Assembly (NCBI GenBank): GCA_902617715.1
Contig: CACMXS010000004.1
Coordinates: 1 to 64,000, forward strand
DNA from: an uncultured Pelagibacteraceae bacterium
Lineage (GTDB): Bacteria; Pseudomonadota; Alphaproteobacteria; Pelagibacterales; Pelagibacteraceae
Reading direction: 5' to 3'
Length of the DNA: 64,000 nucleotides
Both the position numbers and the translations under genes were made by a program. The notes under the pieces were generated by a model. It was not told where the DNA came from, did no database searches, and saw only the letters and a program-made list of their open reading frames with translations. Numbering within the stretch: position 1 is the first letter of the stretch; the number at the start of each line of letters is the position of its first letter. Shown here one piece after another: positions 18,181 through 39,314 of this stretch.

Positions 18181-18927
18181 ATGAATAATTTTAGTTATTA
18201 CAAAATAACAAAAAATAAAAAAATTAGATATCTTAAAATTTCAAAAAAAAAGGGGACTTATGTTGTTTTTCTTCACGGATTTATGTCAGATCTTGAGGGT
18301 AAAAAACCACGATCATTTCTAAATTTTTCAAAAAAGAATAAACTAGGTTTTTTAGCACTTGAATATTCTGGACATGGTAAATCTTCAGGGAAATTCACAG
18401 ATGGAAATATTTCTAAATGGTCTAAAGAATCATCATTTTTGGTTAAGAAGATTGTTAGGAAAAATGATATTATAATTATTGGTTCTAGTATGGGTGCCTG
18501 GATTGCTCTTAATCTAATTTTAAAATTCAAAAAACAAATTAAAGGATTTATGGGTATTGGTTCTGCTCCAGAATTTTTAGAAAATCTTATGTGGAAGAAG
18601 TTTTCAAATAAAATGAAAAAAGAAATTATTAAAAATGGAATAATAAATTTAAAACACGGAGATTATGAATATCCACTTACACTTCAACTTATGAAAGATG
18701 GGCAAAAAAATAAAATTTTGCACAAAAAAATAAATCATGATTTAAAGGTTGTTATGATACATGGAAGTAAAGATACCTCGGTACCAGTAATATACTCAAA
18801 AAAAGTGTTAAAAATTTTTAAATCTAATAAGAAAAAATTAGTTATAATAAAAGATGGTGATCATAGTCTTTCATCACCCGGATCATTGAAAATTTTAAAA
18901 AAAGAACTTAGTTCAATTATTAACTAA
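18181..18927 (+). CDS. Alpha/beta hydrolase
   Basis: VFLHGFMSDLEGKK, IIGSSMGAWIALNLIL (GxSxG), VVMIHGSKDTSVP, GDHSLSSP. Confidence 0.8.
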   Translation: MNNFSYYKITKNKKIRYLKISKKKGTYVVFLHGFMSDLEGKKPRSFLNFSKKNKLGFLALEYSGHGKSSGKFTDGNISKWSKESSFLVKKIVRKNDIIIIGSSMGAWIALNLILKFKKQIKGFMGIGSAPEFLENLMWKKFSNKMKKEIIKNGIINLKHGDYEYPLTLQLMKDGQKNKILHKKINHDLKVVMIHGSKDTSVPVIYSKKVLKIFKSNKKKLVIIKDGDHSLSSPGSLKILKKELSSIIN

Positions 18928-21900
18928 CTTCTTTTATTTTTGGATTTAATGTAATTGGATTATCAAGTTTATTAATCATTTCTTTCGGACAAACTTGAAT
19001 GAAATTTTGAATTTCCTCCTCAAAATTATCTATAATCTTTTTAGATAATTGTGAGTTAGTTTCTTTTGAATGTTCTAAAACTAATTTTTTTAAAAAGTTC
19101 TTCCAATAATCAGTCTCAACATCTTGCCAAACAACAGAATCTAAATTTACTTTTTTTTCAAATTCTTTGGAAATGTCGTATATAAATGCCATCCCTCCAG
19201 TCATACCAGCTGCAAAATTATCTCCAACTGCTCCAAGGATTACAGCAGTTCCTCCAGTCATATATTCACAACCATTAGAATCACATCCCTCAACAACTGT
19301 TATAGCACCAGAATTTCTTACTGCAAATCTATCACCTGCTTGTCCAGCAGCAAAAAGTTTTCCAGATGTAGCTCCGTAAAGAACTGTATTGCCAATAATT
19401 GTATTTTCATTAGATATTAAATTACTTTCATCTGATAATTTAATAACAATTGTTGCTCCTGATAAACCTTTACCAACATAATCATTTGCGTCCCCTTTTA
19501 AATTTAATTTTAATCCCTTAGATGCAAAAGCTCCAAAAGATTGTCCTGCGGAACCTTTAAAATTTAAAGTTAGAAAGTTAACATCCAATTTTTCATAACC
19601 ATACTTTGTATAAAGATTGTGAGAAATTCTCGTACCAACTGCTCTATTTGTGTTCTTAATAAGAAATTCTTTTTCAATTTTTTCAGAATTATCCAATGAT
19701 TTTTTTATCTCAGGCCAAATTTCTTGGTCTAACGTTTTTGGAACTTCATTAATTTCTTGTGACTCACAATACCTTTTGTTGTTGCCTGGGTCTGCTTGAA
19801 CAAATAAAGGATTTAAATCTAAATCATCTAAATTAGGTGAACCTTTATTTACTTGCATTAATAGATCTGTTCTTCCAATAATATCGTTTAATGATTTGAA
19901 ACCCAGTTCAGCTAAAATTTCTCTCACCTCAGATGCAATAAAAGTAAATAAATTTACAACTTTATCTGGTGTGCCAGTGAATTTTTCTCTTAATTTTTCA
20001 TCCTGTGTGCAAACACCAACTGGGCAGGTATTTGAATGGCATTGTCTTACCATAATACATCCCATTGCAACTAAAGCTGTTGTGGCAACCCCGAATTCTT
20101 CAGCTCCCATCATAGCAGCAATAACCACATCCCTACCGGTTTTAATTCCACCATCTGTTCTTAAAGTAACTTTATGTCTTAAATTGTTTAGAGTAAGAAC
20201 TTGATTGGCCTCTGTTAAGCCCATTTCCCAAGGTATACCAACATACTTTACACTTGTTTGTGGAGTAGCTCCAGTTCCACCATTATGTCCTGAGATTAAA
20301 ATTATGTCTGCTTTAGCTTTTGCTACACCTGCAGCAATCGTTCCTACACCTGATGAAGCAACCAATTTTACTCCAATTCTAGCTTTTGGATTTATTTGCT
20401 TTAGGTCATAAATTAATTGAGCCAGATCCTCGATTGAATAAATGTCATGATGTGGTGGAGGAGAAATTAAGGTAACTCCAGGAGTCGAATGTCTTAATCG
20501 AGCTATTTCATCTGTAACTTTAAATCCAGGTAATTGTCCACCTTCACCAGGCTTTGCTCCTTGGGCAATCTTTATTTCTATTTCATTACAATTATTTAGA
20601 TAATTTACTGTCACTCCAAACCTTGCTGAAGCAATCTGTTTTACTCTTGAATTAGCACTATCTCCATCATTCATAACTTTGAATCTTTTTTCATCTTCAC
20701 CACCTTCACCACTACAAGATGCTCCTTTGATCCTATTCATACCTATAGCTAGAGTTTCGTGTGCTTCCTTAGATAATGCCCCGTGAGACATACTTCCACT
20801 ACCAAATCTTTTTAGAATTTTTTCTATAGGTTCGACTTCTGATAGTTCTATTGGTGGGCCCAATTTTTTTTTTCTAAAATTTATTAAATCTCTTAAATTT
20901 ATAGGTGGCAAATTATAAATACCTTCTGCATATTTCTTGTAAGCATCATAAGAGTTTGAGCCTACTGCGCTCTGTAACAAATGTATAAGCTTGCCTTGAT
21001 ATTGATGTGTTTCTCCATTTTTTCTATATCTATAAATACCACCAATAGGTAATACCGTTTCCGTACTTTCAAATGCTTCTTTATGAATTTCTCTTATTTT
21101 CTTCTCAATACCAGTCAAGCCAATTCCTGATATTTTTGAGGTCACGCCTGGAAAATAATCATCAACAATTGTTCTACTGAGGCCAACTGTTTCAAAATTA
21201 CATCCACCTCTGTAAGAACTTAAAACTGAAATTCCCATTTTAGACATTATTTTTAAAAGCCCAGCATTTACACATTTGATATACCTTTGGACACATTCAT
21301 CAAAACTAAATTGACCAAAGAGTTTTTTTGAATGTCTTTGATATAAGCTATCTAAAGCCAGATATGGATTAACTGTAGTAGCACCAACCCCTATTAATGT
21401 TGCAAATGAATGGGTATCTAACGCTTCTCCAGACTGAACATTGATTGAAACGTAACCTCTCAATTTTTTTTTAATCAAAAAAGTATTAATAGCACCCACA
21501 CATAATAACATAGGTATAGGTAGTTTTTTTGAAGAAAGATCTTTATCACTAAGAATAATCTGTGTAATACCTTGTCTTACAGCAATTTCTGCTTCTTTTT
21601 GAATTCTTTTAATAGCCTCAGCCAAATTCTCATCTTCGTCAAATGTGCAATCTATATTTATTGAATCTTTACCAAAAAAATTAATAAATTTATTAAATTG
21701 TGAATTAGATAAAATTGGACTGTTTAGCACATAAATATTTTCTTTTGTTAAGGTATCAAAATCTAAGATATTTCCCAAATTTCCAAATCTTGTTTTTAAA
21801 CTCATTACTTTATTTTCTCTCAATGAGTCTATTGGGGGATTGGTAACTTGACTAAAATTTTGTCTGAAAAAATGATATAATGGTCTGTACCTATCAGATA

Positions 21901-36114: not shown

Positions 36115-36440
36115 TGACCTACATAGTAAATGATAAATGTATCAAATGTAAACATACGACCTGTGTTGATGTTTGCCCTGTTGATTGCTTTTATGAGGGG
36201 AAAAATATGCTTGTAATTAAACCGGATGAGTGTATAGATTGTGGCGTTTGCGAACCAGAATGTCCTGTTGATGCAATCAAACCTGATACAGAACCTGGTG
36301 CTGAAAATTGGTTAGAACTTAATAAAAAATATTCTGAGATTTGGCCAAATATAACTGAAAAAAAAGATCCACCATCGGATCATGAAAAATATAAAGATGA
36401 AGAAAATAAGTTTGAAAAATATTTTAAAGAAAACCTTTAA
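36114..36440 (+). CDS. fdxA: 7Fe ferredoxin
   Basis: [55 protein letters not shown]. Confidence 0.95.
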
Positions 36441-37269
36441 AAAAAAATCAAAAAAAAAAGAAAAAAAAATAGTTAAAAAAAAAGCAATAAAATCCAAATC
36501 AAATATCATAAAAAAAATAAAAAAAAGTACAAAAACTAAAATAAAAAAAACTTCCTTAAAAAAAACTCAAAAGTCTGAAAGATCAAATGTCGATCAAAAA
36601 GGAGAAAATTTAAGAATTTCAAAAAGTAATGAAATAAAGCCTGAAATAAAAAAAGTTAAGAAACAGGAAACTGCTAAAAGAGAATATAAAATTAAAGATT
36701 TTATAGTTTATCCAAAACATGGAGTTGGTCAAATTACTGAATTTAAAAAAATCAATATAGGCGGAATTGATGTGGAAACTTATATTATCAAATTTGAAAA
36801 AGATAAAGCAAATGGAATGGTGCCTGTAAATAAACAATTACATTTACGTCCTTTAGCTACCATTAACCAAGTTAATAAATGTATCTCTATTTTAAAAAGC
36901 AAACCAAAAATTAAAAGGTCAATGTGGAGTAGGCGAGCTCAAGAATATGAAGCTAAAATATCTTCTGGAAAAATCTATGAATTAGCAGAAGTCGTAAGAG
37001 ATCTTAACAAGGGAGATGATCTAATGGTCGACCAATCATACAGTGAAAGACAGTTATTTGAAAAAGCATATGAAAGAATTTTGTCTGAATTTAAAATTAT
37101 ATTAAATCTTTCCTTGGAGGATACACAAAAAAAATTAGATAAGGCATTAAGAAGAAATTTAGAAGGTCAAAATAAAACTCCCACACAAGTTATAAAAAAC
37201 CCTTCATCTGAATTATCTGAAGAAGAACCTATTTCTGAAAATGATGCTGAGGAGTCTTTAGAAAACTAA
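36382..37269 (+). CDS. CarD/CdnL-family RNA polymerase-binding regulator with Lys-rich N-terminal extension
   Basis: [23 protein letters not shown]...[18 protein letters not shown] (CarD RID), C-terminal helical [17 protein letters not shown]; first ~95 aa Lys-rich low complexity. Start overlaps the 3' end of fdxA. Confidence 0.88.
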
Positions 37270-37271
37270 AA

Positions 37272-37313
37272 AAAAACGCCTCTCACACAGAAAGCGTTAT
37301 GAGAAGCGTTTTT
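37272..37313. terminator. Bidirectional intrinsic terminator between carD and the mini basic protein gene
   Basis: aaaacgcCtctca / tgagaAgcgtttt stem (13 pairs, one C-A mismatch) with 14-nt loop; T5 on + side, T9 on - side. Confidence 0.8.
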
Positions 37314-37332
37314 AATAAAGAATACTAAGCTA

Positions 37333-37410
37333 CTATCTTCTTCTTCTTTTTTTAGCTTTTTTCTTAGCTTTTTTCTTAGCCTTCTTTGCTTTTTTTCTTC
37401 TTTTAGCCAT
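37333..37410 (-). CDS. 25-aa Lys/Arg/Ala-only microprotein MAKRRKKAKKAKKKAKKKAKKRRRR
   Basis: Codon-by-codon reverse translation: ATG GCT AAA AGA AGA AAA AAA GCA AAG AAG GCT AAG AAA AAA GCT AAG AAA AAA GCT AAA AAA AGA AGA AGA AGA TAG; SD AAAGGGAG upstream; promoter and terminator flank it. Missed by the ORF track. Confidence 0.75.
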   Translation of the reverse strand: MAKRRKKAKKAKKKAKKKAKKRRRR

Positions 37411-37432
37411 CTTTAGCTCCCTTTAAGTTAAA

Positions 37433-37449
37433 CGAATCAAATTGATTCG
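37433..37449. promoter_or_regulatory. Perfect inverted repeat cgaatcaa-a-ttgattcg in the predicted 5' UTR
   Basis: 8-bp arms separated by 1 nt, between predicted TSS and SD of the microprotein gene. Confidence 0.6.
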
Positions 37450-37460
37450 CGATTACCTTA

Positions 37461-37489
37461 TTTTTATTTTTTTATACACGTTATGTCAA
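37461..37489 (-). promoter_or_regulatory. Sigma70-like promoter for the microprotein gene
   Basis: Reverse strand TTGACA (37484-37489) - 17 nt - TAAAAA (37461-37466), about 50 nt upstream of the ATG. Confidence 0.55.
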
Positions 37490-37607
37490 TTCTTAAATTA
37501 AATTAAAATTTTTCGAAAAACTAAAAAAAAAATTATTTTTAATAAAATTTAGAAATGTTTGAAAAAGTTAATGTTTATGCGCTTTATAATCAAATATTTA
37601 AATTCAA

Positions 37608-39314
37608 TTAATAAAGTTTTTCTAAGTCATGTTTATATTTTTCCAAAATTTTTTTTCTTTTTAGTTTTAATGTTGGTGTCAACATTCCATTTTCAATTGT
37701 AAATTCTTCTTTAATTAATTTAAATTTTTTAACTTTTTCTACTAAAGATAAACTTTTATTCAAATTTTCTAAATAAAACTCAATTTCATTTTCATTTTCT
37801 TCACTTTCACTTACAATTAAAGCAACTAAATAATTTTTTTTATCTCCATAAACAAAACTTTGTTTAATTTTTTCACTCAAGCATAACAAATTTTCAATTT
37901 TTGATGGAGAAATGTTATCGCCACCTAAATTTACAATAATTTCTTTTTTTCGATCAGTTATTTTTAAATTTCCACCTTTTGTTATTTCTCCTATATCTCC
38001 AGTATGCAACCATCCATCTTTGATAATTTCATTTGTCTCCTTTTTCATATTCCAATATCCAAGCATAACATTTTCTCCTTTAACTAAAATTTCACCATCA
38101 TCACCAATTTTTACACTGTTGGTTTTGAAAGGTGGACCAACGGTCTCTATTTCGATATTTCCAGGAATATTACAGCTCACAACAGGAGAGGCCTCCGTTA
38201 ATCCATAACCTTGAAGAGTTGGTAAGCCTATAGAATTCAAAAATTCACCTATTTTTTGGTCTAAAGCTCCACCTCCAGAAACAAAAGCTTTCAGCTTACC
38301 TCCAAACTGTTTTTTAATTTTTCTTCTTACTAATTTTTCACAGAAAAGATTGATAATTTTTTCTCTAAAATTTAGTCTTTCTTTTTTTAAAATTTTAGTT
38401 CCAAGTAAAATAGTATTTTCTATCAATTTCTTTTTTAAACCTTTTTGTTTTGAAAAATTAAGAGAAATTTTACTATATAAATTTTGATAAAATCTTGGAA
38501 CTGCTGTCATAATAGTAGGTTTTGCTAATGCCATGTTAGGTAATAATTTTTCTAAACTTTCAGCATAAAAAACTTTTGCCCCAAGAGATATTTGTACGTA
38601 TTGAACAGTGTGTTCATATGAGTGAGACAAAGGAAGCCAGGTTAAAAAGACAGGTTCAACTTTTTTAAATAATGAATTTAAAATTTCTTGTGCACCTTCA
38701 CAGTTAGATAAAATACCTCCATGGCTAAGCATTACACCCTTGGGGTTGCCTGTTGTTCCTGAGGTATAAATAATGCAAGCAACATCTTTTCTTTTAATCT
38801 TTGTATTATATTCAAGTGGTACTGGAAATAATTTGGACTCTTTTTTAAAATAATCTTCTAAAATTTTTTCAATACTTTCAATTTCTTTATTAAAATTTTC
38901 AATAGATAGTATTTTTGTATTATTTGATACAAACTTTTCAATTTTTTTTAATTGAAAGTTATTTGACACAATACATATCTTTGGTTGGCAATCATTAAAG
39001 ATATATTCATAATCCTTTTCTGAATACGTCGTAAATAAAGGAACAGTTACTCCACCAGCATTCATTATAGATATATCTGCTATTAGCCATTCAGGACGAT
39101 TTTCAGATAAAAGCACACATCTGTCTCCAGAAGATATATTCCTTCTTAAGTATTCAGATAAAATTCTAATATTCAATTCTACTTGACCCCATTTTAGAAA
39201 ATCTTGTTTACCAGCTTTTAACCATTTTAAAAATGGGGAGTCATTCGTAGCAATTTTTTGTTTATACTTTTCGAAAAAAAGTTCTACAAGACTATTAATT
39301 TTATATATTTCCAT
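37608..39314 (-). CDS. AMP-dependent long-chain acyl-CoA synthetase
   Basis: ACIIYTSGTTGNPKGVMLSHGG, LQGYGLTEASPVVS, GWLHTGDIGEITKGGNLKITDRKKEIIV. Confidence 0.92.
   Translation of the reverse strand: MEIYKINSLVELFFEKYKQKIATNDSPFLKWLKAGKQDFLKWGQVELNIRILSEYLRRNISSGDRCVLLSENRPEWLIADISIMNAGGVTVPLFTTYSEKDYEYIFNDCQPKICIVSNNFQLKKIEKFVSNNTKILSIENFNKEIESIEKILEDYFKKESKLFPVPLEYNTKIKRKDVACIIYTSGTTGNPKGVMLSHGGILSNCEGAQEILNSLFKKVEPVFLTWLPLSHSYEHTVQYVQISLGAKVFYAESLEKLLPNMALAKPTIMTAVPRFYQNLYSKISLNFSKQKGLKKKLIENTILLGTKILKKERLNFREKIINLFCEKLVRRKIKKQFGGKLKAFVSGGGALDQKIGEFLNSIGLPTLQGYGLTEASPVVSCNIPGNIEIETVGPPFKTNSVKIGDDGEILVKGENVMLGYWNMKKETNEIIKDGWLHTGDIGEITKGGNLKITDRKKEIIVNLGGDNISPSKIENLLCLSEKIKQSFVYGDKKNYLVALIVSESEENENEIEFYLENLNKSLSLVEKVKKFKLIKEEFTIENGMLTPTLKLKRKKILEKYKHDLEKLY

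Follow-up and report, generated by a model that had tools for sequence, protein, structure and literature searches.

The window analysed here (64,000 nucleotides of a contig from an uncultured Pelagibacteraceae bacterium) contains a real, single-copy, protein-coding gene of 25 codons next to carD. We consider it probable that this gene is independently transcribed and encodes a minimal histone-H1-tail-like (protamine-like) polycation of the SAR11 order. If H1-tail-like, it would be, to our knowledge, the smallest free-standing protein of this kind. What is new, as judged from the compared sequences, is an apparently H1-tail-like protein at protamine size that is order-wide and has its own conserved leader. 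No description of such a micro-gene or of an H1-like small protein was found in the SAR11 and Pelagibacter papers searched, and a study of structured RNAs in SAR11 (PMC2704228) does not mention carD. The peptide may have entries in large automatic catalogues of small proteins or antimicrobial peptides (AMPs), where Pelagibacter candidates are many (PMC10491242).

A basic micro-gene convergent with carD

An earlier note on this DNA had described a self-contained gene for a 25-residue protein with only Lys, Arg and Ala after its Met. The ORF is real. It lies on the minus strand, reads from 37410 to 37333 including the stop codon and encodes MAKRRKKAKKAKKKAKKKAKKRRRR, a peptide of ~3 kDa with 19 K/R residues and no acidic residue. 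No other ATG ORF of 18-60 aa in the 64-kb window reaches 70% K/R/A, and none turned up in 100 Markov-simulated windows with matching dinucleotide composition, which rules out a chance origin of such an ORF. A Pfam search finds no HU/IHF domain (Bac_DNA_binding, PF00216) in the peptide, and it has neither a signal sequence nor a hydrophobic face.

The unit described around the ORF is also present on the minus strand. The −35 element TTGACA is found at 37484-37489 and extends to TTGACAT in all 148 distinct leaders of the genus; TTGAC also occurs in the leaders of the sister genera and the sister family. A putative −10 element, TAAAAAT (37460-37466), is located 17-18 nt from it, and the A/T-rich block is kept in relatives. 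An inverted repeat, CGAATCAATTTGATTCG, follows. Immediately 5' of the ATG is AAAGGGAG. The stretch of Shine-Dalgarno (SD) site and spacer, GGGAGCTAAAG (37411-37421), is almost invariant in the genus: it ends 184 of 185 genus-type copies, the remaining one having GGGAGTTAAAG. In sister genera this region reads GGGAGAAAAG, GGGAGATAAG or similar, and no second exact copy of GGGAGCTAAAG exists within the window. Downstream of the ORF, the intrinsic terminator AACGCTTCTCATAAC...GTGTGAGAGGCG with its T9 run (37272-37313) is kept in the genus; in 200 shuffles, the 66-nt piece never folds equally well. The genus-level conservation of the terminator hairpin sequence AACGCTTCTCATAAC goes beyond what a terminator needs.

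The claim of a self-contained micro-gene holds for its coding nature and for its own promoter-like elements, leader and SD site. It is not an isolated island, however, since it is convergent with carD and the terminator is common to both, its other strand serving carD. carD (36382-37269, plus strand; domains CarD_TRCF_RID and CarD_C) has a lysine-rich N-terminal tail and is the neighbour that fixes synteny. In the genus this tail of CarD is ~100 aa long (36382-36680 in the window). Upstream on the same strand as the micro-gene, across an intergenic gap of 197 nt, lies an AMP-binding, FadD-like acyl-CoA ligase (37608-39314, minus strand).

Conservation across Pelagibacterales

Orthologues were sought from CarD matches and not from the peptide, so that the ORF itself had no part in selecting the loci. 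At 56 of 58 carD loci of the genus the micro-gene is present, as it is at all 18 in the family's other genera and at all 10 in the sister family. At the two remaining genus loci the contig starts inside the gene, and its 3' end and the terminator are still visible. Thus the proposed synteny search across Pelagibacterales yields an orthologue or a contig-end remnant at 86 of 86 carD loci examined. The earlier note had named loss of the ATG, SD and reading frame in close relatives, or tolerated frameshifts, as evidence against a gene; all three are kept across the order. A direct protein search in the genus matched 14 of 61 genomes, with a 25-aa low-complexity query of low sensitivity. This low number is an artefact of sensitivity, as carD synteny reveals the gene at every locus.

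A pattern running from the SD site to codon 8 was searched in GTDB species genomes, and the matches listed include Pelagibacteraceae and Pelagibacterales contigs and one from Elusimicrobia. The latter is a chance match to the first part of an unrelated ORF that is longer. No copies of the micro-gene were found in phage or viral contigs. At six loci (L042, L046, L050, L087, L117 and L118) an ATG or TTG lies further upstream in frame, close to the hairpin; a start there would put ~9-11 extra residues (e.g. MIRTNRELK) ahead of MAKRRKK or MPKKRKK. Given the conserved SD site, this upstream start is probably unused.

SAR11 is commonly the most numerous bacterial group of surface seawater, and its small genome retains little that is dispensable. 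A gene that is single-copy, order-wide and shorter than gene callers usually accept makes a strong core-function candidate and is easily missed by annotation pipelines.

Purifying selection on charge and its spacing

In the genus sample, 151 distinct units give 78 distinct ORFs and 42 distinct proteins. These proteins are 21-35 aa long, consist after the Met exclusively of K, R, A, T and P, and are ~75% K/R. The selection check on the codons that the earlier note had proposed points to strong purifying selection: pS is 0.078, pN 0.005 and pN/pS 0.063, an estimate from overlapping nearest-neighbour pairs of the 151 units and not a phylogenetic dN/dS. The differences counted in this comparison are 76 synonymous and 21 single-base nonsynonymous ones. 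Of the latter, 20 are Lys/Arg swaps and one is A to P; there is no K to E and no change to an acidic residue. A/G changes fall 60 times on the third codon position, 23 times on the second (mainly the K/R swap) and twice on the first. The ORF changes its length by whole codons only, and the spacer between hairpin and SD site ranges over 6-12 nt in any phase. The ORF is therefore a coding sequence under purifying selection that retains its high K/R content.

Ala and Thr residues are spaced by 3-4 positions in 74% of cases versus 27% in shuffled cores. With this spacing a stripe of small residues would fall on one helix face. On the sequences compared, it is the charge and the charge spacing that are conserved rather than specific residues, and the number of modules is free.

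A conserved inverted repeat and predicted hairpin in the leader

The inverted repeat forms a predicted hairpin near the mRNA 5' end (37433-37449, minus strand), with arms CGAATC and GATTCG around the loop AATTT. It would stand at the extreme 5' end if transcription starts at the usual distance. Exactly these arms are present in 146 of 148 distinct genus leaders, at a distance of 39-42 nt from TTGACAT, and enclose a loop of 4 nt (22 leaders), 5 nt (118) or 6 nt (8). The pattern CGAATC-n3-7-GATTCG has one site in 29 of 31 genomes and adjoins carD wherever coordinates were compared. Of the two genomes without it, one has the locus cut by a contig end (G004) and the other has no carD match either (G117).

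The order as a whole retains the 5' arm CGAATCA, with altered pairings. G-C becomes G-U in two genera, and A-U becomes C-G, among other changes, further in. In three sister genera the stem is shifted inward, and CGA is mostly unpaired there. These changed pairings and the inward shift fit an RNA hairpin better than a symmetric DNA operator. Covariation, counted formally in the genus and the two nearest genera, is not above shuffles, most pairs being invariant. This absence of covariation in the genus, together with the nearly invariant arms (146/148), would suit a palindrome that is the DNA operator of a dedicated repressor, a reading which is compatible with other readings of the ORF. We regard such an operator as unlikely, as the arm spacing varies between 4, 5 and 6 nt, the paired region moves inward in the three sister genera, and the palindrome lies downstream of the predicted start site, inside the leader.

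In some sister genera an upstream CUCC is able to pair with the GGAG of the SD site, as seen by eye and by folding. This pairing is suggestive and would allow translational control in these genera. An Rfam search of the 64-kb window at gathering thresholds returned three tRNAs alone, with no match to a known structured RNA leader. The SAR11 leader is a ready-made candidate regulatory RNA.

Longer relatives and the link to H1 tails

The earlier note had likened the composition to that of histone H1 and HctB tails. The longer relatives lend support to this. Sister genera have forms of 21-58 aa, among which intermediates of 31-58 aa are rich in AKKP/KPAA. The sister family has AAPKKK proteins of 40-91 aa, such as MEELKVIFAKARKKAKKKAAPKKKRKAAKRKPAKKKAAPKKK..., with a short MEELK-type start. 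Their genes occupy the identical locus in the same orientation and carry a leader with TTGAC and a CGAATCA hairpin; by this common position, orientation and leader they are orthologues of the SAR11 gene. The SAR11 25-mer may be a reduced form, or the longer forms may be expanded ones. The reading we favour is that it is the reduced extreme of an H1-tail-like family and would be controlled via its 5' leader. The family has a Lys/Ala(/Pro)-rich, low-complexity composition almost without acidic residues. It also varies in repeat number, always in frame: the genus has 21-35 aa, the sister genera reach 58 and the sister family spans 40-91. In Pfam and NCBIfam, neither the window peptide nor 4-6 longer orthologues gave a match at E<=1, with tools that discount biased composition. 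As no curated model matches, we describe the gene as working like H1-like proteins and not as a member of them.

A comparison with known H1-like proteins shows common features and clear differences. Hc2/HctB of Chlamydia and BpH1 of Bordetella have the same Lys/Ala-rich repeats, in-frame size variation by whole modules and evenly spread positive charge (PMC2848022). Hc2 has 165-237 aa, with repeat elements of ~36 aa and pentamers that each hold two basic residues, whereas the SAR11 protein has 21-35 aa, ~75% K/R and a conserved leader. The C-terminal KPAA domains of AlgP and PhaF in Pseudomonas are like the longer forms of the SAR11 order in H1-tail composition and in KPAA/AAPK-type repeats. 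However, AlgP and PhaF have a folded N-terminal domain while the SAR11 gene is the tail alone, and the 25-aa peptide is without the dimerising or folded domain found in Hc1 and AlgP. The N-terminal tails of CarD in some other alphaproteobacteria are also H1-like, of the AKKPAAKK type. These are part of CarD itself, in contrast to the separate SAR11 gene convergent to carD, where CarD keeps its own K-rich tail. Protamines are ~25-35 aa long and consist mostly of basic residues, like the SAR11 peptide. They are Arg-based and specific to eukaryotic sperm, and no homology with them is claimed. The graded size series from 21 to 91 aa can be used to test the minimum sufficient polycation.

Possible function and alternative explanations

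Our best guess, by analogy with the proteins above, is a nucleoid protein whose binding and expression level we infer. The peptide alone would be disordered and would become helical on a polyanion, with the Ala/Thr stripe on one face. It would bind DNA, and probably RNA, without sequence specificity and neutralise the charge. In the cell it might compact or coat the nucleoid alongside HU-type proteins. HU-family genes are present in 24 of 24 genomes, with 2-3 per genome, so the peptide would add to the normal set and not replace HU. The conserved charge and spacing, the free module number and the H1-tail-like homologues lead us to favour a polyanion binder that lacks specificity and acts mainly on the nucleoid, as does the fact that studied proteins of this type bind DNA, RNA or polyphosphate granules. 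One point against the nucleoid reading is the near-invariant GGGAGCTAAAG, a conservation that exceeds what simple expression of a nucleoid protein needs.

The 5' hairpin could set the output after initiation, either by stabilising the mRNA or by being bound. If it were bound, for example, by the peptide itself, the polycation level would be self-limited. This leads to a more far-reaching proposal, which we put forward as a tentative one and think doubtful: a core self-regulated polycation system in SAR11 and its relatives, in which translation of the protamine-sized H1-tail protein is set by its mRNA leader, acting as a sensor of free polycation (or of free nucleic acid). If true, it would be a minimal way for a streamlined cell to tune the compaction of its nucleoid or RNA.

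The main rival to a nucleoid polycation is a lineage-specific small ribosomal protein which threads into rRNA, its leader exerting autogenous control of the ribosomal-protein type. The small ribosomal proteins bTHX, bS22/Sra, bL37 and bL38 resemble the SAR11 peptide in size, basicity and MAK-type start, and its single copy, promoter-like strength and conserved leader are also reminiscent of such genes. Other ribosomal-protein genes of SAR11 have cis leaders as well, namely the rpsB and rpsL motifs (PMC2704228). The constrained length and sequence-specific conserved residues of a ribosomal protein are, however, not seen here. Within a single order the length runs from 21 to 91 aa, modules being gained and lost like repeats, the genus has no conserved aromatic, Gly, His or Asn position, and the AAPKKK H1-like repeats of the sister family are unlike a ribosomal protein. 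No chain was matched in a PDB sequence search, a test that composition bias weakens. Given that length and number of repeats are free to vary and that no residue other than K, R, A, T or P is conserved, a ribosomal role is the less likely one, and we rate it as rather improbable. We give slightly less credence still to a polycation with another main polyanion, either RNA, as a chaperone or condensate former, or polyphosphate granules in the manner of AlgP. H1-tail-like AlgP, which binds DNA, is found at polyphosphate granules and sets their spacing (PMC9239181), and Hc2, which binds both DNA and RNA, is a repressor of translation (PMC2848022). The neighbours of the SAR11 gene, carD and the acyl-CoA ligase, have nothing of polyphosphate or RNA metabolism, though.

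A secreted cationic antimicrobial or membrane-active peptide would have a similar composition, and a machine-learning catalogue lists 6,675 candidate AMPs from Pelagibacter (PMC10491242). Conservation at every locus of a streamlined order ill suits a gene for antagonism. With carD and the acyl-CoA ligase as neighbours, no export or immunity genes, no signal sequence and no hydrophobic face, we reject this reading as highly improbable. We give the least credence of all to a regulatory leader peptide which reads the charging of Lys/Arg-tRNA. Its layout of a short K/R-rich ORF followed by a terminator hairpin is that of an attenuator, but the sister-family versions reach 40-91 aa, and gene order largely rules it out: there is no downstream gene on the same strand, carD being convergent.

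Similar genes and tails beyond the order

A scan of other alphaproteobacterial carD loci found no comparable micro-gene adjoining carD. One apparent match at such a locus is the N-terminal tail of CarD itself. The 85-aa form gave no match in a protein search of the class that was run without a positive control. When the class outside the order was searched by DNA pattern, five matches came up: one is a real AAPKKK gene and four are chance matches (unrelated, very short or read out of frame).

In a second alphaproteobacterial family (f122), a DNA pattern for the KKKAAPKKK-type coding repeat is found in 22 of 30 genomes. The nine loci that were read encode an AAPKKK protein of 56-74 aa and have a leader with TTGAC, an ATCAC..GTGAT-type hairpin, GGAGG..CCTCC and an SD site. 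The likeness to the SAR11 leader may be due to homology or to convergence. If the polycation system proposed above is true, the design of a leader plus an H1 tail recurs in this family. At one of its loci (L316) the AAPKKK gene is flanked by an ORF for an ABC-type ATPase and not by carD.

The genome of the window itself encodes another H1-like tail. On contig C3 at ~18,700-19,950 (~1290-2543 of locus L002) lies a gene for a 413-aa protein with an exported FecR-type start, as judged by eye. This FecR-like protein ends in a K/A/T-rich H1-like tail of ~150-200 aa, which is the source of weak DNA self-matches.
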